Shown here: one piece after another, positions 10,355-17,523 of the stretch
How positions within the stretch are numbered: the first letter of the stretch is position 1
Layout of the letters: the number at the start of each line of letters is the position of its first letter
Assembly (NCBI GenBank): GCA_944384205.1
Contig: CALWSL010000006.1
Span: 62,001-126,000 of the forward strand
DNA: 64,000 nt
Source of the DNA: an uncultured Acetatifactor sp.
GTDB lineage: Bacteria; Bacillota; Clostridia; Lachnospirales; Lachnospiraceae
Reading direction: 5' to 3'
Made by a program: the position numbers and the translations under genes
The notes under the pieces: model-generated
The model's input: only the letters and a program-made list of their open reading frames with translations
Told to the model about the DNA's origin: nothing
The model's database searches: none

Positions 10355-10383
10355 TTGACATATTATCAAAATGATAATATTAT
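10355..10383 (+). promoter_or_regulatory. Sigma-A promoter of the NAD salvage operon
   Basis: TTGACA at 10355-10360, 17-base spacer, TATTAT at 10378-10383. The spacer and -10 are overlapped by the first palindromic operator, so a bound repressor would block polymerase. Confidence 0.8.
10361..10379 (+). promoter_or_regulatory. Palindromic operator O1, probable NrtR site
   Basis: A perfect inverted repeat TATTATC-5-GATAATA lies within the promoter spacer. NrtR is a Nudix-derived repressor of NAD genes that binds palindromes upstream of its targets and is itself encoded in this operon. Assignment to NrtR is inference from context. Confidence 0.65.
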
Positions 10384-10398
10384 AATTCTAACAACAGA

Positions 10399-10417
10399 TA
10401 TTATTAATTTGATAATA
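10399..10417 (+). promoter_or_regulatory. Palindromic operator O2, probable NrtR site
   Basis: TATTATT-5-GATAATA has the same 7-5-7 design as O1 with one mismatch. Its centre is 38 bp downstream of O1, just after the expected transcription start. Confidence 0.6.
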
Positions 10418-10443
10418 ACAAAAAAGACATGGAGGTTTGGCGT

Positions 10444-10950
10444 ATGAAAAAGACATTGATTGTAGTAGATATGCAGAAGGACTTTATTGACGGCGCATTA
10501 GGAACCAAAGAGGCGGTTGCCATCGTGGAGAATGTGAAGAAGAAAATTGCAGCATATCAGGAAAACGGGGATGAAATCATTTTTACAAGGGATACCCATC
10601 AGGCGGATTATCTGAATACCAATGAGGGAAAGCACCTTCCTGTGGAACATTGTATCGAAGGAACGGCAGGCTGGGAGCTTTATGAGGGACTTGAGGCGCC
10701 CGGTGCAATCTACATCAACAAGCCCACCTTCGGATATCTGAACTGGGCGGATTACAAGTTAGAAGAGGTGGAAATGGTTGGTCTGTGCACGGATATCTGT
10801 GTGGTATCTAACGCGCTGATTATCAAAGCCACCTATCCCGAAATTAAGGTGACGGTAGATGCAAGCTGCTGTGCAGGGGTAACACCGGAAAGTCATGCCG
10901 CAGCATTAACCACCATGAAGATGTGTCAGGTGGAAGTAGTGGGGGAATAA
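10444..10950 (+). CDS. pncA: Nicotinamidase (isochorismatase-fold cysteine hydrolase)
   Basis: A 168-residue isochorismatase-family protein. The catalytic triad is visible as Asp in VVDMQKDF, Lys in INKPTFGYL and Cys in GLCTDICV; the DTHQADY and GKHLPVEHC stretch supplies the metal-binding histidines. It would deamidate nicotinamide to nicotinate. The ATG at 10444 is chosen because GGAGG lies 8 bases before it; an earlier in-frame ATG at 10429 overlaps that Shine-Dalgarno. First gene of the NAD salvage operon. Context makes nicotinamidase the likeliest of the cysteine-hydrolase functions. Confidence 0.85.
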   Translation: MKKTLIVVDMQKDFIDGALGTKEAVAIVENVKKKIAAYQENGDEIIFTRDTHQADYLNTNEGKHLPVEHCIEGTAGWELYEGLEAPGAIYINKPTFGYLNWADYKLEEVEMVGLCTDICVVSNALIIKATYPEIKVTVDASCCAGVTPESHAAALTTMKMCQVEVVGE

Positions 10951-10983
10951 TTCGATTTTATTGATAGGAAAGAGGGGACTTCA

Positions 10984-11784
10984 ATGATTAAGATAAATGG
11001 GAAACAAGTGGATTTAAAGCATTTTCCGGACGGAACCCTGTTGCTGAAGGAGCTTGCGCCGGAAACAGAAAAAGTGACCTTGACCTGGCTTTTTGAAAAC
11101 AATGAAGAGCTGGTGGGATTATACTTTCTCACAAAACACCTGCGCTCAAAGGGGAGAAAGGAGATTGCCCTACAGCTTCCCTACCTTCCCAATGCGAGAC
11201 AGGACCGTGTGAAAGCGCCGGAGGATGTGTTTACGCTAAAATATTTTGCAGAGCTGATAAACTCTCTGGAATTTTGCGAAGTGGAGGTATTAGACCCCCA
11301 TTCTTATGTAAGTGAAGCGTTACTGAACAACATCAGGATTCGGACGCCAAAGAAATATGTGGAAAAGGTGTTAGAACAGCTTACGCGGCAGAATGAGCGC
11401 AGGGTGCTGCTTTTCTTTCCCGATGAAGGCGCCATGAAACGATATTCTGTCATGTTTGAACAGCCCTATGTGTTTGGCATTAAGAAGCGTGACTGGACTA
11501 CCGGCGAAATCGAAGGCTTAGAGGCAGCAGGACAGACTGATTTGATTCCGGGAAGTACGGTCTTAATCGTGGATGATATTTGCAGCAGGGGCGGAACCTT
11601 CTATTACAGCGCAAAGGCGTTGAAGGAATTGGGAGCAGAGCAGGTGTATTTATATGTTTCCCATTGTGAAAATACTATCCTTGAGGGGGATCTTTTAAAA
11701 ACGGATTTGGTGGAAAAGGTGTATACCACCAACAGTATTTTTACAAAGAGCGATGAAAAAGTGGAGGCATTTTCTTATGAATAA
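10984..11784 (+). CDS. Divergent ribose-phosphate pyrophosphokinase-like enzyme (Prs-like)
   Basis: A 266-residue protein, about 50 residues shorter than housekeeping Prs (about 315). It keeps the ATP-loop-like PYLPNARQDRVK, a DPHS metal site, KKRDWTTGE where Prs has a basic KRR loop, and the PRPP-binding loop VLIVDDICSRGGTF. It should transfer pyrophosphate from ATP to a ribose-5-phosphate-type acceptor. It directly precedes and overlaps the NAMPT-like gene, so it either feeds PRPP to that enzyme or acts on a different acceptor: in the phage NARP1 pathway a Prs-like enzyme pyrophosphorylates ADP-ribose. The sequence alone cannot settle the acceptor. An AGAGGGG Shine-Dalgarno precedes the ATG. 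Confidence 0.8.
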   Translation: MIKINGKQVDLKHFPDGTLLLKELAPETEKVTLTWLFENNEELVGLYFLTKHLRSKGRKEIALQLPYLPNARQDRVKAPEDVFTLKYFAELINSLEFCEVEVLDPHSYVSEALLNNIRIRTPKKYVEKVLEQLTRQNERRVLLFFPDEGAMKRYSVMFEQPYVFGIKKRDWTTGEIEGLEAAGQTDLIPGSTVLIVDDICSRGGTFYYSAKALKELGAEQVYLYVSHCENTILEGDLLKTDLVEKVYTTNSIFTKSDEKVEAFSYE

Positions 11785-13252
11785 AATAAATCCGATGTTG
11801 TTGATTGATTTTTATAAGGCAGTGCACGCGGAAATGCTGCCAAAGGACATTACAAAATCCGTATCTTACTTTACGCCCCGCATGAGCCGGGTGGAGCGTT
11901 GGGATAAGGTGGTCATGTTTGGATTGCAGGGCTTTATTAAGACTTATTTAATTGACTATTTTAACGAGGAATTTTTTGAGAAGCCCTTTACTGAGGTGAT
12001 TGGGGAATACAAGAGAATCATGGACGCTACGCTGGGTGCGGAGGCTTACAAAATCGAAAAGATAGAGAAGCTGCACAAGCTGGGATATCTGCCGATTGAA
12101 ATCATTGCATTGCCGGAGGGAAGTATGGTTCCCATGCACATTCCCATGTTCGGTATTACAAATACACATCCTGAATTTGCATGGCTGCCACAGTCCCTGG
12201 AGAGTCTCATTTCCGCAGAGAGCTGGCACCCCATGATTGCGGCGACAGTGGGATATACCTATCGCCAGATTGTCAATGAATACTATGACAAGACCTGTGA
12301 CGACAACATTGCCCGTGCAAGGGCGTTAGGCGCTTTTGATTTCCGCGGGGAGGAGTGTACGGATTCTGCGGTGAAAGCAGGTGCGGGATGGTGTTTGTCC
12401 TTCTTAAATACGGCGACGGTTCCCACGATTCCCTATCTGGAGCAGATGTATGCCTGCGATTGTACCAAGGAGCCGGTGGCGTTTGGCAGTCCCAGTACGG
12501 AGCATTCCGTCATGTGCAGCAATTATGCCATGGACGGCGACGAAGTGACGCTGTTAAAGCGTCTGCTGACAGAAATTTATCCCAATACCAGCTTCAGCGC
12601 GGTGCTGGATTCCTATGATTACTGGAATATCATTGATAATGTGCTTCCGCAGATTAAGAAAGAGATACTGGCGCACAACGGCTGTATGCTGATGCGAGGG
12701 GATTCCGGCGAATGTGTGGAGGTTGTGACCAAAACTGTCTTTAAGCTTTGGGAAGAGTTCGGTGGCACTGTCAACAGCAAGGGCTATAAGGTATTAGACC
12801 CGCATGTGAAAGCTATTTACGGAGATTCCATTACCATTCAGCGATGCGAGGAGATTTACCGCATTTTAGAAGAAAACGGATTTGCATGTTCCAATGTGGC
12901 GCTGGGTGTAGGTTCCTTCTCCATGCAGTGTATCGAGGAGGACGGTATCTTAAAGCCCTTTACCAGAGATACTTTTAGCTCCTGCATCAAAGCCACCTAT
13001 TGCGAGATTGCCGGCAAGCCCTATCCCATTTTTAAGAATCCTAAGGACGGCGGATTTAAAAAGTCCCAGAAGGGATGCTGCGTGGTAACAGGAAATGCGG
13101 AAGGTACACTCACCTATCAGGATGGATTTACATGGAAGGAAGCCTGTGAAAATCCTGACAATGCGTTAATCACAATCTTCAAAGACGGCATTCTGTTAAA
13201 AGAACAGTCGTTGCAGGAAATCAGAAACAGATTACACGGAGGGAAATTCTAA
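11777..13252 (+). CDS. nadV: Nicotinamide phosphoribosyltransferase-like enzyme (NadV/NAMPT family)
   Basis: A 491-residue NAMPT/NAPRTase-family protein. It opens with NPMLLIDFYKAVHAEMLP, equivalent to the N-terminal substrate loop of NAMPT, and has FDFRGEECTDSAVKAGAG, TEHSVM (the catalytic-His region), MRGDSGE, YGDSITIQ and GVGSFSMQ in the expected order. The start at 11777 overlaps the Prs-like stop by 8 bases and has GGAGG 9 bases upstream; an in-frame ATG at 11753 lacks this. The family makes NMN from nicotinamide and PRPP. By hand alignment, the residue equivalent to the aspartate that selects nicotinamide in human NAMPT appears replaced by Thr, so the true substrate (nicotinamide, nicotinate or an ADP-ribose derivative) is open. 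Confidence 0.85.
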   Translation: MNKINPMLLIDFYKAVHAEMLPKDITKSVSYFTPRMSRVERWDKVVMFGLQGFIKTYLIDYFNEEFFEKPFTEVIGEYKRIMDATLGAEAYKIEKIEKLHKLGYLPIEIIALPEGSMVPMHIPMFGITNTHPEFAWLPQSLESLISAESWHPMIAATVGYTYRQIVNEYYDKTCDDNIARARALGAFDFRGEECTDSAVKAGAGWCLSFLNTATVPTIPYLEQMYACDCTKEPVAFGSPSTEHSVMCSNYAMDGDEVTLLKRLLTEIYPNTSFSAVLDSYDYWNIIDNVLPQIKKEILAHNGCMLMRGDSGECVEVVTKTVFKLWEEFGGTVNSKGYKVLDPHVKAIYGDSITIQRCEEIYRILEENGFACSNVALGVGSFSMQCIEEDGILKPFTRDTFSSCIKATYCEIAGKPYPIFKNPKDGGFKKSQKGCCVVTGNAEGTLTYQDGFTWKEACENPDNALITIFKDGILLKEQSLQEIRNRLHGGKF

Positions 13253-14022
13253 TGAAGTATGAATTTAATGCGGCAGAGATAAAGGATAACTGTGTACAAT
13301 GGATTAGAGACTGGTTTGCGGAAAATGGAAAGGACTGCAATGCGGTTGTAGGAATTTCGGGCGGCAAGGACAGCTCTGTTGTGGCGGCGTTGTGCGTGGA
13401 GGCTCTGGGACGAGCGAGGGTAATCGGTGTTTTAATGCCCTGTGGCAAGCAGGCGGATATCGATATGGCGAAGAAACTGGTGAAGCATCTTGGCATTCAA
13501 AGCTACGAGCTGAATATCAAGAGTGCAGTGGACGGAATCTTAAATGAAATGACAGACATAAATGTGACAAAGCAGACCAAGACAAATCTTCCCGCCAGAA
13601 TCCGTATGTCCACCTTATATGCGGTCAGTCAGAGCATGAATGGTCGTGTGGCGAATACCTGTAATCTGTCGGAGGATTGGGTGGGCTATTCCACCAGATA
13701 CGGCGACAGCGCCGGGGATTTCAGCCCGCTGTCCCATTTGACCGTCACAGAGGTAAAAGCCATCGGCAGAGTATTAGGACTGCCCGACGATTTGGTGGAT
13801 AAGGTTCCGATTGACGGACTCAGCGGCATGACCGATGAGGAAAATCTGGGCTTTACCTATGCAGTGCTGGATCGTTACATTCGGGAGGGCATCTGCGAGG
13901 ATGAAGCGCTGCGTGAGAAAATTGACCAAATCCACAGAAGAAACCTGTTTAAATTAGAGCTGATGCCCAGCTTTCAGTTGCATGATGAAAGATGCGGGAT
14001 GACTTGCGAACCTGCCAGATAG
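13252..14022 (+). CDS. nadE: Ammonia-dependent NAD+ synthetase
   Basis: A 256-residue N-type ATP pyrophosphatase. The P-loop VGISGGKDSSVVAAL lies near residues 33-47; the substrate-recognition stretch ends STRYGDSAGDFSPLSHL, and TDEENLGFTYAVLDRYI closes the domain. No glutaminase domain is present, so it would use ammonia to convert nicotinate adenine dinucleotide to NAD. Its start codon overlaps the last base of the preceding stop codon. Its presence implies flux through nicotinate-type intermediates, which fits with the nicotinamidase at the start of the operon. Confidence 0.93.
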   Translation: MKYEFNAAEIKDNCVQWIRDWFAENGKDCNAVVGISGGKDSSVVAALCVEALGRARVIGVLMPCGKQADIDMAKKLVKHLGIQSYELNIKSAVDGILNEMTDINVTKQTKTNLPARIRMSTLYAVSQSMNGRVANTCNLSEDWVGYSTRYGDSAGDFSPLSHLTVTEVKAIGRVLGLPDDLVDKVPIDGLSGMTDEENLGFTYAVLDRYIREGICEDEALREKIDQIHRRNLFKLELMPSFQLHDERCGMTCEPAR

Positions 14023-14037
14023 TTTAGGAGAAAGGAA

Positions 14038-14943
14038 ATGAGTCGTTACAAAATAAGTGAAGAAGAAAAGGCATATTTGGAACAGTATGATATTGCGCAG
14101 TTTGAACGCCCGTCCCTGGCAACAGATATGGCGATTTTCTCGATTATGGAGGAGGGGGAAAGGGACAATTTCCGCAAGCTCCCCCAAAAGGCATTGAAGC
14201 TTCTGCTGATTAAGCGGGCGTCTTTTCCCTTTAAAGACTCATGGGCGCTGCCGGGCGGGTTCTGCAGACCTGATGAGGATGTTTATGAAACTGCCAAAAG
14301 AGAGCTGTACGAGGAAACCAATATAAAAAATGCGTACTTAAATTTAACGGGAACCTTCGGAGATATCGGCAGAGACCCAAGGGGCTGGATTATTTCCAAT
14401 ACTTTTTTAGCTTTAATAGATGGGGAAGCCTGTAACCTTCGGGCGGGCACCGATGCCTGGGAGGCAAAGTGGTTTTCTGTGACATTAAAGCGGATTGAGA
14501 TAAAAAAAGAGGTAACGGAAGAGATTGTGGACATGGAAACAGAGTATGAGCTTACTTTGCTTCATGAGGACGCGGGTATCTGTTTGTCTGCAAAGATAAA
14601 GGAGTATAAGCAGTTTCAAAATTATCATGAAACTGTGCGTTATGAGATGCTGGACTGCGAAAATATCGCCTTTGACCATGCGAAGCTGATTCTGCATAAC
14701 TTACTGTTTCTTCGCAAAAGTGTAGAAAATGATTTCAAAATGGCATTTGATTTGATGCCGGAGACTTTCACACTGACAGAACTGCAGACGGCTTTTGAAT
14801 TAATTCTTGGCCGGAAATTATTAGCTGCAAATTTCCGAAGAAAGATTAATGATTATGTGGCAGAGACAGAACACTTCTTGGAGGGGGCAGGGCACCGTCC
14901 TGCGAAGCTGTTTAAACGTAATATACAGGAATTTTACAGATAG
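14038..14943 (+). CDS. nrtR: NrtR-like Nudix-fold transcriptional regulator of NAD genes
   Basis: A 301-residue protein with an N-terminal Nudix fold and a C-terminal winged-helix part. The Nudix box reads GFCRPDEDVYETAKRELYEE with Asn where the final glycine is expected, so hydrolysis may be weakened. The GDIGRDPRGW strand and the C-terminal LGRKLLAANFRRKI and GHRPAKLFKRN segments are hallmarks of NrtR. NrtR represses NAD biosynthesis genes and is released by ADP-ribose. The protein is longer than typical NrtR (about 210-250 aa) because of an extra segment near 150-215. Two matching palindromes in the operon promoter make autoregulation likely. Confidence 0.85.
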   Translation: MSRYKISEEEKAYLEQYDIAQFERPSLATDMAIFSIMEEGERDNFRKLPQKALKLLLIKRASFPFKDSWALPGGFCRPDEDVYETAKRELYEETNIKNAYLNLTGTFGDIGRDPRGWIISNTFLALIDGEACNLRAGTDAWEAKWFSVTLKRIEIKKEVTEEIVDMETEYELTLLHEDAGICLSAKIKEYKQFQNYHETVRYEMLDCENIAFDHAKLILHNLLFLRKSVENDFKMAFDLMPETFTLTELQTAFELILGRKLLAANFRRKINDYVAETEHFLEGAGHRPAKLFKRNIQEFYR

Positions 14944-14953
14944 AGGAAATAGG

Positions 14954-15652
14954 ATGAAGCGTTTTTTAAAGGAAGAATTAAGTGGGTGGAAGAAAAGGGA
15001 GGTCTGCTGGCTCATCATTGCCTGCGGGGTCATAACAGGACTGTCAATTTACTGGGGAGATACCCCAATGGGGATTATCTCCGCTACCACAGGCGTCGCC
15101 TGTGTGGTCTGCACCGGAAAAGGAAAATTGTCGGCTTACCTCTTTGGACTGGTTAATTCCGTTCTCTATGCAATCATTTCTTATCGCGCCGCATTGTATG
15201 GGGAAACTATGTTAAATGCCATTTATTATGTACCCATGCAGTTTGTGGGATTTTATATCTGGTCTAAAAACATGAACAGCGAAACCCATGAGGTGCGAAA
15301 AAAGCATATGAAAAACAGTGGCAGAAGCTTAATGGTGCTTGCCATTATCGCCGCCACCTTTGTGTATGGCGTGATTCTGAAATACATGGGTGATGCAATG
15401 CCCTTTGTGGATGCCTTTACAACGGTTTCTTCAGTAGTCGCAATGTTAGTATCCGTCAGGATGTTCGCGGAACAGTGGTGGATTTGGATTGCCGTGGATG
15501 TATTTACCGTATATATGTGGGCATGTAACTTTATGACCGGACAGGAAAACATTGCCACACTGCTCATGTGGATTGTTTATCTGGGAAATGCAATTATGAT
15601 GTGTATCAAATGGGAGAAAGAGATTAGAGGGAAAGCAGATGTACAAGTATAA
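14954..15652 (+). CDS. pnuC: Nicotinamide riboside transporter PnuC
   Basis: A 232-residue polytopic membrane protein (about seven hydrophobic segments). The PnuC-type pattern is visible in GLVNSVLYAIISYRAALYGE, YVPMQFVGFYIW and the WIAVDVFTVYMWACNF helix. PnuC lets nicotinamide riboside diffuse in, driven by phosphorylation inside. The start at 14954 has GAGG upstream; an upstream in-frame ATG would overlap nrtR by about 95 bases with no Shine-Dalgarno. Its stop overlaps the start of the next gene, whose kinase domain traps the imported riboside. Confidence 0.9.
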   Translation: MKRFLKEELSGWKKREVCWLIIACGVITGLSIYWGDTPMGIISATTGVACVVCTGKGKLSAYLFGLVNSVLYAIISYRAALYGETMLNAIYYVPMQFVGFYIWSKNMNSETHEVRKKHMKNSGRSLMVLAIIAATFVYGVILKYMGDAMPFVDAFTTVSSVVAMLVSVRMFAEQWWIWIAVDVFTVYMWACNFMTGQENIATLLMWIVYLGNAIMMCIKWEKEIRGKADVQV

Positions 15653-16682
15653 AGTAGGAATGTATGGAGGTTCTTTTGACCCGTTGCATGTGGGACATAT
15701 TCATGATATTATCAGGGCAGCAGCCATGTGTGAGGAGCTGTACGTGATGATAAGCTGGTGCAGCGGCAGGGAATCTGCCTCCAAGGAGCTTAGATACCGC
15801 TGGATTTTAAATAGCACCAGACATCTTTCCAATGTGAGAATCATCATGGTGGAGGATAAGGCGGTATCCAAAGAGGAATATAACACGGATTATTACTGGG
15901 AAAAGGGTGCCGAGGATATTAAAAATACTATCGGCAAGCCCATAGATGCGGTGTTCTGCGGTTCCGATTATTATGGGACGAACCGCTTTGAAAGCCTGTA
16001 TTGCCCGGAAAGCGAAGTGGTTTATTTCGACAGGGCAGAGGTGCCTGTCAGTTCCACGGAAATCCGTACCTGGGCAACCAAACATTGGGATTATATTCCG
16101 GCGGTGTGCAGGGACTACTACACCAGAAAGGTATTAGTGGCAGGCGGAGAATCTACCGGAAAATCCACGTTGGTGCAGAATCTTGCGCTTGCATATAATA
16201 CGAATTTTGTGGCTGAGGTGGGCAGGGAAACCTGCGAATATGCAGGCGGCGAAGAACTGATGATACTGGACGATTTAATTGAAAACATGATTCGCCAAAA
16301 GGACGAGGTGAGAAAGGCGGCAAAGAGCAGCAACAGAATCCTTTTTGTAGATACGGACGTTCTTACCACAGGTTTTTACTGCAATTTACTGTTGGAGAAT
16401 CCCGAAGAAAAAACAAAGATGGTGCAACTGGCAGACAGTATTCACTGGACGAATGACTGGGATATGGTTTTGTTTCTGGAGCCTGAGGGAGCGGCGTTTG
16501 TGCAGGATGGCACCCGCAATGAGGAGATAAAGACGCAGCGCAAGAAATACAGCGAGATGCTCAAGGCAATGTTTGATAGGAATCAGGTGAAATATTTTGC
16601 CATCTCAGGGGATTACCTTGAAAGATTTAATAAAGCAAAAGAACTGATTGCACAGGAATTAAAGATTACAACGCAGTTTTAA
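15639..16682 (+). CDS. nadR: Bifunctional NMN adenylyltransferase / ribosylnicotinamide kinase (NadR-like)
   Basis: A 347-residue two-domain enzyme. Residues about 1-160 form an NMNAT domain with GSFDPLHVGHIHD and the closing SSTEIR signature; residues about 165-347 form a kinase domain with P-loop VAGGESTGKSTL. It lacks the N-terminal helix-turn-helix of enterobacterial NadR, so it is catalytic only. It would phosphorylate nicotinamide riboside to NMN and adenylate NMN (perhaps also NaMN) to the dinucleotide. It overlaps pnuC by 14 bases, a classic riboside uptake and trapping pair. Confidence 0.93.
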   Translation: MYKYKVGMYGGSFDPLHVGHIHDIIRAAAMCEELYVMISWCSGRESASKELRYRWILNSTRHLSNVRIIMVEDKAVSKEEYNTDYYWEKGAEDIKNTIGKPIDAVFCGSDYYGTNRFESLYCPESEVVYFDRAEVPVSSTEIRTWATKHWDYIPAVCRDYYTRKVLVAGGESTGKSTLVQNLALAYNTNFVAEVGRETCEYAGGEELMILDDLIENMIRQKDEVRKAAKSSNRILFVDTDVLTTGFYCNLLLENPEEKTKMVQLADSIHWTNDWDMVLFLEPEGAAFVQDGTRNEEIKTQRKKYSEMLKAMFDRNQVKYFAISGDYLERFNKAKELIAQELKITTQF

Positions 16683-16692
16683 GGAGGCAAAG

Positions 16693-17523
16693 ATGGGATA
16701 TTTTACAAGTGAAAAGCTGAATAAAGCTGTGACAAGGATTCTGTGTCCGGGAAAGGTGTATGCGTATCTGGTGGAGGGGCAGCAGTCGGCGGCGCTGATT
16801 GATACCGGATTCGGAGTTGGAAGTCTGAAGGAGTATGTGGAATCGCTCACAACGCTTCCCTATGTTGTGCTGCTCACCCATGGGCATTTAGACCATGCGG
16901 GCGGCGCAGGGGAATTTGAGCAGGTGTATATGAATGAGAAGGATTTGCAGTTAGCCGGGGAGCATACCACGCTGGAGAAGCGGGCGCCATATTTCTATCA
17001 TGGGGATACTGGCAATTCCGGTATTAATGTGAAGGATTTTGTCCCACCGCTGGCTTTAGGGAAATATCTGCCCTTGCGGGATGGACAGCGCTTTGACCTG
17101 GGCGGTGTCACGGTGACAATGCTTGCCCTGCCGGGGCATACGAAGGGGAGTATGTGCGCACTGGTGAATGAGTTAAGGACGGTCCTTTTGGGGGATGCCT
17201 GCAACAGCTTTGGATTTTTACAGCTTCCCGAAAGCAGCAGCCTTCAGGAATACCATGACAGTCTGGTTGCTTTCCGCAAGTATGTAGACCTCTTTGATGA
17301 GGTGTGGTATTCCCACCCTCACAATTTCGGGGACAAAAGTATTCTGGAACAGACCATAGACTTGTGCGAAGAGCTTCTTTCGGGAAAAAGAGAAGGGATT
17401 CCCATGGAACAGAAGGAAGGGCAGCGTACAGAAATACGGATGGCAAAGTCCACAGATGCGCATGACCGTCCTCTGGATGGAAGTTTTTCAAATTTTTTGT
17501 ACAAATCTGAATTTAGGTGTTGA
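16693..17523 (+). CDS. Metallo-beta-lactamase-fold hydrolase, last gene of the NAD operon
   Basis: A 276-residue MBL-fold protein. Metal ligands are visible as THGHLDHAGG (HxHxDH), the histidine in LPGHTKGS, the aspartate in LLGDACNSF and a late His in YSHPHNF. It follows the NadR-like gene by 10 bases with an AAGGAGG Shine-Dalgarno, so it is almost certainly cotranscribed. Substrates of this broad family range from glyoxalase II thioesters to cyclic nucleotides and phosphodiesters. Nothing in the sequence identifies the substrate; a role in NAD or ADP-ribose derivative repair is only an inference from position. The tRNA promoter overlaps its stop codon. Confidence 0.8.
   Translation: MGYFTSEKLNKAVTRILCPGKVYAYLVEGQQSAALIDTGFGVGSLKEYVESLTTLPYVVLLTHGHLDHAGGAGEFEQVYMNEKDLQLAGEHTTLEKRAPYFYHGDTGNSGINVKDFVPPLALGKYLPLRDGQRFDLGGVTVTMLALPGHTKGSMCALVNELRTVLLGDACNSFGFLQLPESSSLQEYHDSLVAFRKYVDLFDEVWYSHPHNFGDKSILEQTIDLCEELLSGKREGIPMEQKEGQRTEIRMAKSTDAHDRPLDGSFSNFLYKSEFRC

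Follow-up and report, generated by a model that had tools for sequence, protein, structure and literature searches.

NARP1 is the closest described system to the locus analyzed here. In its classical bacterial form, ADP-ribose pyrophosphate (ADPR-PP) and nicotinamide are joined directly to give nicotinamide adenine dinucleotide (NAD+), and the NARP1 of Paenibacillus foliorum, described as working in this way, was active in E. coli as well as in vitro (Lan et al. 2026, PMC12774641). A chromosomal NARP1 in bacteria is hence already published and is not new here. In the Namat transferase of SPbetaL1, according to the same source, Asp215 hydrogen-bonds nicotinamide and the D215A mutation leads to an 8.1-fold loss of activity. 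For human NAMPT, a review calls Asp219 fundamental to substrate specificity (PMC7096376), and H191 is described as hydrogen-bonding D219 (PMC4186856). Here, we analyzed a 64,000-nucleotide stretch of contig CALWSL010000006.1 of an uncultured Acetatifactor sp. (hereafter the window), which carries an eight-gene operon with pncA-, adps- and namat-like genes followed by nadE, nrtR, pnuC, a nadR-like gene and a gene for a metallo-beta-lactamase (MBL)-fold protein. What looks new is the pncA-adps-namat-nadE variant with a changed base pocket. Judging from the sequences, this operon is probably a chromosomal system of the NARP1 kind that would rebuild NAD+ via the deamidated base, that is, through nicotinate and nicotinic acid adenine dinucleotide (NaAD), the specificities of its enzymes being predicted.

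Kinship of the two enzymes to Adps and Namat

SPbetaL1 Adps matched the Prs-like protein of the window with 177 bits, whereas the highest-scoring Prs of known structure reached 67 bits and the next-best two matches in the window's own genome, taken irrespective of family, 55 and 39 bits. The NAMPT-like protein scored 405 bits against SPbetaL1-type Namat (9w5w/9w5x) versus 310 bits against Haemophilus ducreyi NadV and 162-166 bits against human and Xanthomonas NAMPT, the last of which we take to be structure 7yqo. Its closest kin are thus not among the NAMPT/NadV enzymes, which use phosphoribosyl pyrophosphate (PRPP). A tree that had phage NadV as outgroups and included no bacterial or human NAMPT rows placed it on the Namat side. 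Its predicted structure (mean predicted local distance difference test score 90.1) was matched by Foldseek to Namat with template modeling scores of 0.92-0.93, to NadV with 0.89-0.90 and to human NAMPT with 0.86-0.87. The fold and the catalytic core are shared with NAMPT and NadV, although similarity to them is lower and the NadV, Xanthomonas and human enzymes keep the Asp that binds nicotinamide.

Because both enzymes are nearest to Adps and Namat by sequence, and the second one also by structural match, the two form a NARP1-type pair, and the resemblance to the phage NARP1 pair proposed by a sequence-only reading of this DNA is borne out. The order of the two genes (adps-like, then namat-like) and the catalytic His are also those of NARP1. 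In addition, the NAMPT-like protein passes the NCBIfam model NF006629 (432 bits, cut-off 405), which is named nicotinate phosphoribosyltransferase, a name that tests no function. The PncB of the genome is a separate protein that aligns weakly to it (local profile alignment, probability 7.6).

Changes in the base pocket

To compare loci, we combined the best 80 bacterial loci from genome_contigs with 79 viral contigs and seven phage records, giving 166 loci. The locus scans kept the best 80 of 178, the best 80 of at least 407 and the best 80 of 403 candidates; since the best-scoring candidates were kept, the samples are biased towards sequences similar to the queries. Near copies are included in the locus counts, and clustered counts were obtained by merging at 90% identity. 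The residue equivalent to Asp215 is Ala in 122 loci and Asp or Glu in 44. A position was taken as separating the two types if its commonest residue occurred in at least 95% of 123 Ala-type rows and at least 90% of 45 Asp/Glu-type rows, with the residue of the latter absent from the former. The rows include the window but not PVA8, and SPbetaL1 is present in duplicate, under its own name and as L004. Five alignment positions were found, namely H187G, D215A, S239G, A242S and W279 to Tyr in SPbetaL1 numbering, and Phass-1 has all five Ala-type residues. The Tyr at the fifth position is also present in the ordinary NadV PVA8. The other four map to the nicotinamide-amide pocket (H191, D219, S241 and A244 in human NAMPT), where the His/Asp/Ser/Ala of NARP1 is replaced by Gly/Ala/Gly/Ser in the window.

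As would be expected for the binding of a carboxylate, this change removes the acidic partner of the amide and adds a hydroxyl. PncB, the NAPRT of the Preiss-Handler pathway, shares with the window enzyme the predicted nicotinate substrate and a hydroxyl at the Ala242 position (Thr in PncB, Ser in the window), but uses PRPP, needs NadD and is distant in sequence; in the weak alignment mentioned above, it has Met opposite H187, Ser opposite D215 and Thr opposite A242. No papers combining D219S with nicotinic acid were found. Separately, at the position of SPbetaL1 Ser190, a phosphate contact, the window has Asp188 (12338-12340), as do many relatives, while others of the same type have Ser.

Association of the pocket type with pncA and nadE

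Among the 122 Ala loci, pncA was found in 112, nadE in 113, both in 104 and at least one in 121. Neither gene was detected in any of the 44 Asp/Glu loci, though adps was present in 43 of them. When only loci with at least 2.5 kb on each side were considered, both genes occurred in 86 of the 92 Ala loci, none of which lacked both, and in 0 of the 35 Asp/Glu loci. After clustering, 83 Ala clusters remained, of which 82 have pncA or nadE and 68 include a member carrying the two together; neither gene accompanied any of the 40 Asp/Glu clusters. A second sample was taken by an Adps-based scan, from which 20 contigs already seen were dropped (matched by name, by eye), leaving 60. Residue 215 was readable in 56 of them: pncA and nadE were both present in all 12 non-Asp contigs and both missing from all 44 Asp contigs, and the remaining four had neither gene. 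The rows without a 90% relative in the first set comprise 8 non-Asp (5 clusters) and 34 Asp (29 clusters). All 12 non-Asp rows have Ala or Ser at D215 and Ser at A242; Ser at position 215 was seen in one phage copy (L274). Given the remodeled nicotinamide pocket and the occurrence of pncA and nadE with this form of it, nicotinate is the likely base and NaAD the likely product. The sequence-only reading had offered ordinary salvage with its own supply of PRPP, or also rebuilding of NAD+ from ADP-ribose (ADPR); the kinship to Adps and Namat agrees with the latter, while the pocket points to nicotinate and NaAD instead of nicotinamide.

The adenine clamp

The NARP1 clamp motif is GSX-phi-X-phi-X-phi-TRD with aromatics at positions 3 and 7. 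The window clamp keeps the Arg (R40), the first Phe (F392) and the TRD end, but has an aromatic at position 3 alone and is nine residues longer than that of SPbetaL1. We therefore do not class the window pair as classical NARP1. A viral contig of 367 kb (L291) encodes the clamp GSFTYQYNTRD, letter-identical to that of SPbetaL1, together with an Ala/Ser pocket, and its adps, namat, nadE and pncA genes are tightly packed. Phass-1 likewise has a short clamp and an Ala/Ser pocket, with pncA, adps, namat and nadE consecutive except for one small gene before nadE. As both pair a short clamp with the Ala/Ser pocket, this pocket can occur without the clamp insert, and it is the pocket that pncA and nadE accompany.

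A recurrent four-gene core in bacteria and phages

Near the NAMPT-like gene in the 80 genome_contigs loci, pncA was detected 76 times, adps 78, nadE 72 and nrtR 61. The recurrence of the first four genes together means that their grouping is not due to chance, and pncA-adps-namat-nadE is a recurrent cassette of gut bacteria and phages, which occurs in several gene orders. The tail of the operon is poorly kept, with pnuC and nadR in 3 of the 166 loci and the MBL gene in none. The eight-gene NAD salvage operon of the sequence-only reading, all of whose genes are present, is thus better described as a four-gene core plus nrtR, with pnuC and nadR as occasional members and the MBL gene as a probable passenger; we rejected the latter as a part of the system. 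In 15 loci the short NadE is replaced by a long one, and the one that was tested carries a glutaminase domain (glutamine type).

The NAMPT-like gene was present in 5 of 299 sampled genomes of the family, including that of the window, and is missing from the one other genome of the same genus. In the same-genus genome G022, matches to the window flanks are scattered over several contigs. A search of 398 genomes of the phylum with SPbetaL1 Namat (E ≤ 1e-20) yielded the window's own genome as the sole match. Phage and bacterial Namat-like copies are interleaved in the tree, and a locus of the isolate Clostridium sp. 12(A) (L067) matches an IMG/VR viral contig (L100) with 100% identity across 17,464 bases, so some chromosomal copies may be prophage-borne. 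In a phage collection of 50,697 records, pncA was found in 9 and nadE in 50. Of the phage records examined, MT835544 and Phass-1 have namat with both pncA and nadE; no namat was found within the examined stretch of eight additional phage records from feces that have pncA or nadE, nor in the 33 of 68 kb examined of the staphylococcal record OR845001 (unverified), which has both. A viral scan with the Phass-1 Namat as query gave no match.

Two same-family genomes (L192 and L193) have one in-frame TAG per Namat-like gene, a pattern consistent with TAG-recoded phage contigs having been binned with the bacteria. Besides, a macrodomain gene lies near namat and nadE in L005 (9567-10190) and in 20 of 40 Ala-type viral_contigs loci, versus 3 of the 80 loci from genome_contigs and 2 of the 44 with Asp or Glu; such a macrodomain might release ADP-ribose for Adps.

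Putative control by NrtR

The NrtR of Streptococcus sobrinus is described as a repressor that is released by ADPR, and NAD genes are gathered in NrtR regulons (PMC12735969). The window operon resembles these regulons in having a gene for a Nudix repressor with a winged helix-turn-helix domain next to NAD genes and palindromic sites, one of which lies within the promoter-like site (18 such promoter-like sites were found in the window, with 13.5 expected). In the whole genome, the operator pattern occurs with at most one mismatch at two sites, both here, and with two mismatches at 11 places, compared with 2 for the reversed pattern. The presence of nrtR together with palindromes at the promoter marks the locus as a putative NrtR operon. 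In another locus (L019, 5658-7820), an NrtR (Nudix plus winged helix) is fused behind a radical-SAM/HemN-like protein upstream of pncA according to Pfam, and similar long nrtR-matching open reading frames (ORFs), judged by ORF length, occur in L023, L074, L075 and L076.

Layout of the operon and its surroundings

The genome holding the window comprises 3.15 Mb in 44 contigs. The eight genes lie in the same direction at 10444-17523, as described from the sequence alone, with ORFs and families confirmed, and the successive stop-to-start gaps are 33, -8, -1, 15, 10, -14 and 10 bases. All features are listed in Table 1. The pncA-like protein scored 38.7 against the NCBIfam nicotinamidase model (cut-off 174), and the solved structures most similar to it are those of an "isochorismatase" (53.7 bits) and a pyrazinamidase/nicotinamidase (49.8 bits), presumably an archaeal one. 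As the genome encodes NadA, PncB, NadD and another NadE away from the operon, the operon duplicates housekeeping functions.

Table 1. Predicted features of the operon in the window
Feature	Position	Strand	Remarks
Promoter-like site TTGACA-17-TATTAT	10355..10383	+	11/12 consensus positions
Predicted NrtR operator 1, ATATTATCA-AAA-TGATAATAT	10360..10380	.	Perfect palindrome within the promoter; only 0-mismatch site of the genome
Predicted NrtR operator 2, TATTATTAA-T-TTGATAATA	10399..10417	.	1 mismatch
pncA-like, predicted nicotinamidase	10444..10950	+	Isochorismatase family PF00857, 1.1e-26; in-frame ATG also at 10429
adps-like (Prs-like), predicted ADP-ribose pyrophosphate synthetase	10984..11784	+	266 aa; 42.9% identity over 96% to SPbetaL1 Adps
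namat-like (NAMPT-like), predicted nicotinate ADP-ribose transferase	11777..13252	+	Sequence and structure kinship to Namat; pocket residues
Pocket codon Gly185	12329..12331	+	SPbetaL1 His187; human H191
Pocket codon Ala213	12413..12415	+	SPbetaL1 Asp215; human D219
Pocket codon Gly237	12485..12487	+	SPbetaL1 Ser239; human S241 by alignment
Pocket codon Ser240	12494..12496	+	SPbetaL1 Ala242; human A244 by alignment
Adenine-clamp segment GSFSMQC-IEEDGILKPF-TRD	12911..12970	+	Nine residues longer than in SPbetaL1 Namat; model strands 385-388, 391-394
nadE, ammonia-type NAD synthase	13252..14022	+	PF02540, 4.1e-53; TIGR00552 above cut-off
nrtR, predicted ADP-ribose-responsive repressor	14038..14943	+	Nudix PF00293 and NrtR_WHD PF21906; NF050029, 8.4e-46, under its cut-off
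pnuC, nicotinamide riboside uptake	14954..15652	+	TIGR01528, 8.8e-39, above cut-off
nadR-like, nicotinamide mononucleotide adenylyltransferase/nicotinamide riboside kinase	15639..16682	+	TIGR01526, 2.8e-54, under its cut-off
MBL-fold hydrolase, probable passenger	16693..17523	+	PF00753; no relative in 166 loci

Ten neighbor proteins were assigned by Pfam to TPR, glycosyl hydrolase 25, SpoVAA, GGDEF-EAL, SpoVAC, nitroreductase, transporter, coaBC-type flavoprotein, GGDEF and CspB-like protease families. No structural phage family was detected among the five non-operon window proteins put to PHROGs, and four tRNA genes lie downstream of the operon. Judged on the neighbor proteins put to Pfam and PHROGs, the surroundings read as chromosome rather than prophage. 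An AAA_14/DUF4143 protein encoded at 8928-10157 matches the PADLOC candidate defense family PDC-S01 from profile position 41 and seems to be without its N-terminal part. A TIR_2 or SIR2_2 NADase of the same genome was considered as a source of ADPR and rejected, as a search covering these two families found no match.

Proposed pathway and alternative explanations

We infer all enzyme specificities, including that of PncA, as well as NrtR binding, the response to ADPR and the physiological role, from sequence. Cleavage of NAD+ would raise ADPR, upon which NrtR would leave the two promoter palindromes and the operon would be switched on. PncA would convert the freed nicotinamide to nicotinate, and Adps would transfer pyrophosphate onto ADPR to give ADPR-PP. 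The Namat-like enzyme would then join nicotinate and ADPR-PP to NaAD, which the operon's own NadE would amidate to NAD+, and PnuC and NadR would add salvage of nicotinamide riboside. The inducer ADPR would also be the substrate, so that, in contrast to known NrtR regulons, the controlled pathway would itself consume its signal. With the genome's own proteins as tblastn queries, PncB and NadD were not found in the 166 loci, although remote forms could be missed by this search; nothing else detected in the cassettes therefore bridges nicotinate to NaAD.

Several observations weigh against this pathway. The identity of pncA is a weak call, taken from its family, and PncA and NadE might rather serve the PncB and NadD that the genome encodes elsewhere. 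The preference for ADPR-PP is less certain for the window than for the L291 viral contig because the window clamp is altered, and the pocket argument is not absolute since human NAMPT has been crystallized with nicotinic acid (6ta0). The first and third pocket positions vary among the 12 non-Asp rows of the Adps-based sample (7 Gly/Ala/Gly/Ser, 3 Ser/Ala/Asn/Ser, 1 Ala/Ser/Gly/Ser and 1 Gly/Ala/Tyr/Ser). Six of the 92 Ala loci with at least 2.5 kb on each side are missing pncA or nadE, and L061, with less than 1 kb upstream and about 9 kb downstream, is the sole Ala locus with neither. The palindrome, with up to 3 mismatches allowed, was sought in the 110 Ala-type loci that have pncA and a sufficient upstream stretch: 19 of the 59 loci that carry nrtR contain it, as do 4 of the 51 lacking nrtR, compared with 1 of 59 and 1 of 51 for shuffled controls. 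Trees were built from hand-picked rows (99 rows, including 50 of the 123 Ala-type, and a second set of 106 thinned rows); topologies with all Ala/Ser copies in one clade were not rejected (approximately unbiased p values of 0.695 and 0.872) and were likelier by 13.6 and 40.7 log units. The pocket change and its link to pncA and nadE may have arisen only once. For this reason, the locus counts are not independent trials, and the clean split may go back to a single event that was inherited. That it has held up in phages, through replacements of NadE and through changes of gene order nevertheless speaks for function.

It is also conceivable, though unlikely, that the operon is a classical bacterial NARP1 making NAD+ directly from ADPR-PP and nicotinamide, with pncA and nadE merely as co-regulated salvage genes. 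Both the kinship to Adps and Namat and the precedent of P. foliorum would suit such a system, but the nicotinamide-binding Asp is replaced, a nicotinamidase next to the enzyme would take away the substrate, and pncA and nadE adjoin Ala/Ser-type copies, phage ones included, and stand beside no sampled Asp-type copy. Slightly lower is the probability of ordinary salvage, in which the Prs-like protein would make PRPP and the NAMPT-like enzyme nicotinamide mononucleotide (NMN) or nicotinic acid mononucleotide, which NadR, or NadD and NadE, would then process. In favor of this, SPbetaL1 Namat is described as still able to form NMN when given PRPP (PMC12774641), the clamp of the window enzyme is altered, and NadR is encoded within the operon. 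However, the Prs-like protein is nearer to SPbetaL1 Adps than to the two next-best matches in its genome, the Arg and Phe positions of the clamp are retained, NadD and PncB were not found in the cassettes, and nadR is confined to the three loci noted above; ordinary salvage was rejected as the leading explanation on the kinship of both enzymes. A loose cluster of NAD genes held together by NrtR, without a dedicated joint pathway, appears improbable. While the other sampled loci seldom include pnuC or nadR and in no case the MBL gene, and NrtR regulons are known to gather NAD genes (PMC12735969), the four-gene core persists, in several gene orders, in viral contigs, with nrtR in 0 of 40 Ala-type viral_contigs loci.

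Compared with NARP1 as represented by the SPbetaL1 sequences and the description of the P. foliorum system, the window cassette differs in its pocket and clamp and in including pncA, nadE and, within the operon, nrtR. The nicotinate form was not found in print; the terms nicotinic, NaAD, PncA, NadE and NrtR are absent from the main text of PMC12774641, and most subscription papers were outside the scope of the search. From a compact set of pocket changes, the analysis predicts an activity that was not found in print, the formation of NaAD from nicotinate and ADPR-PP. We lean towards the view that a second, ADPR-consuming route of NAD+ reconstitution through nicotinate and NaAD is common to phages and gut bacteria and is induced by ADPR in the bacteria. 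Nicotinate as the base would give a reason for the presence of pncA and nadE in phages. Moreover, the operon offers a bacterial relative of NARP1 with the gene of a predicted ADPR sensor inside it, by which the role of chromosomal NARP1, a question raised in PMC12774641, becomes directly testable.

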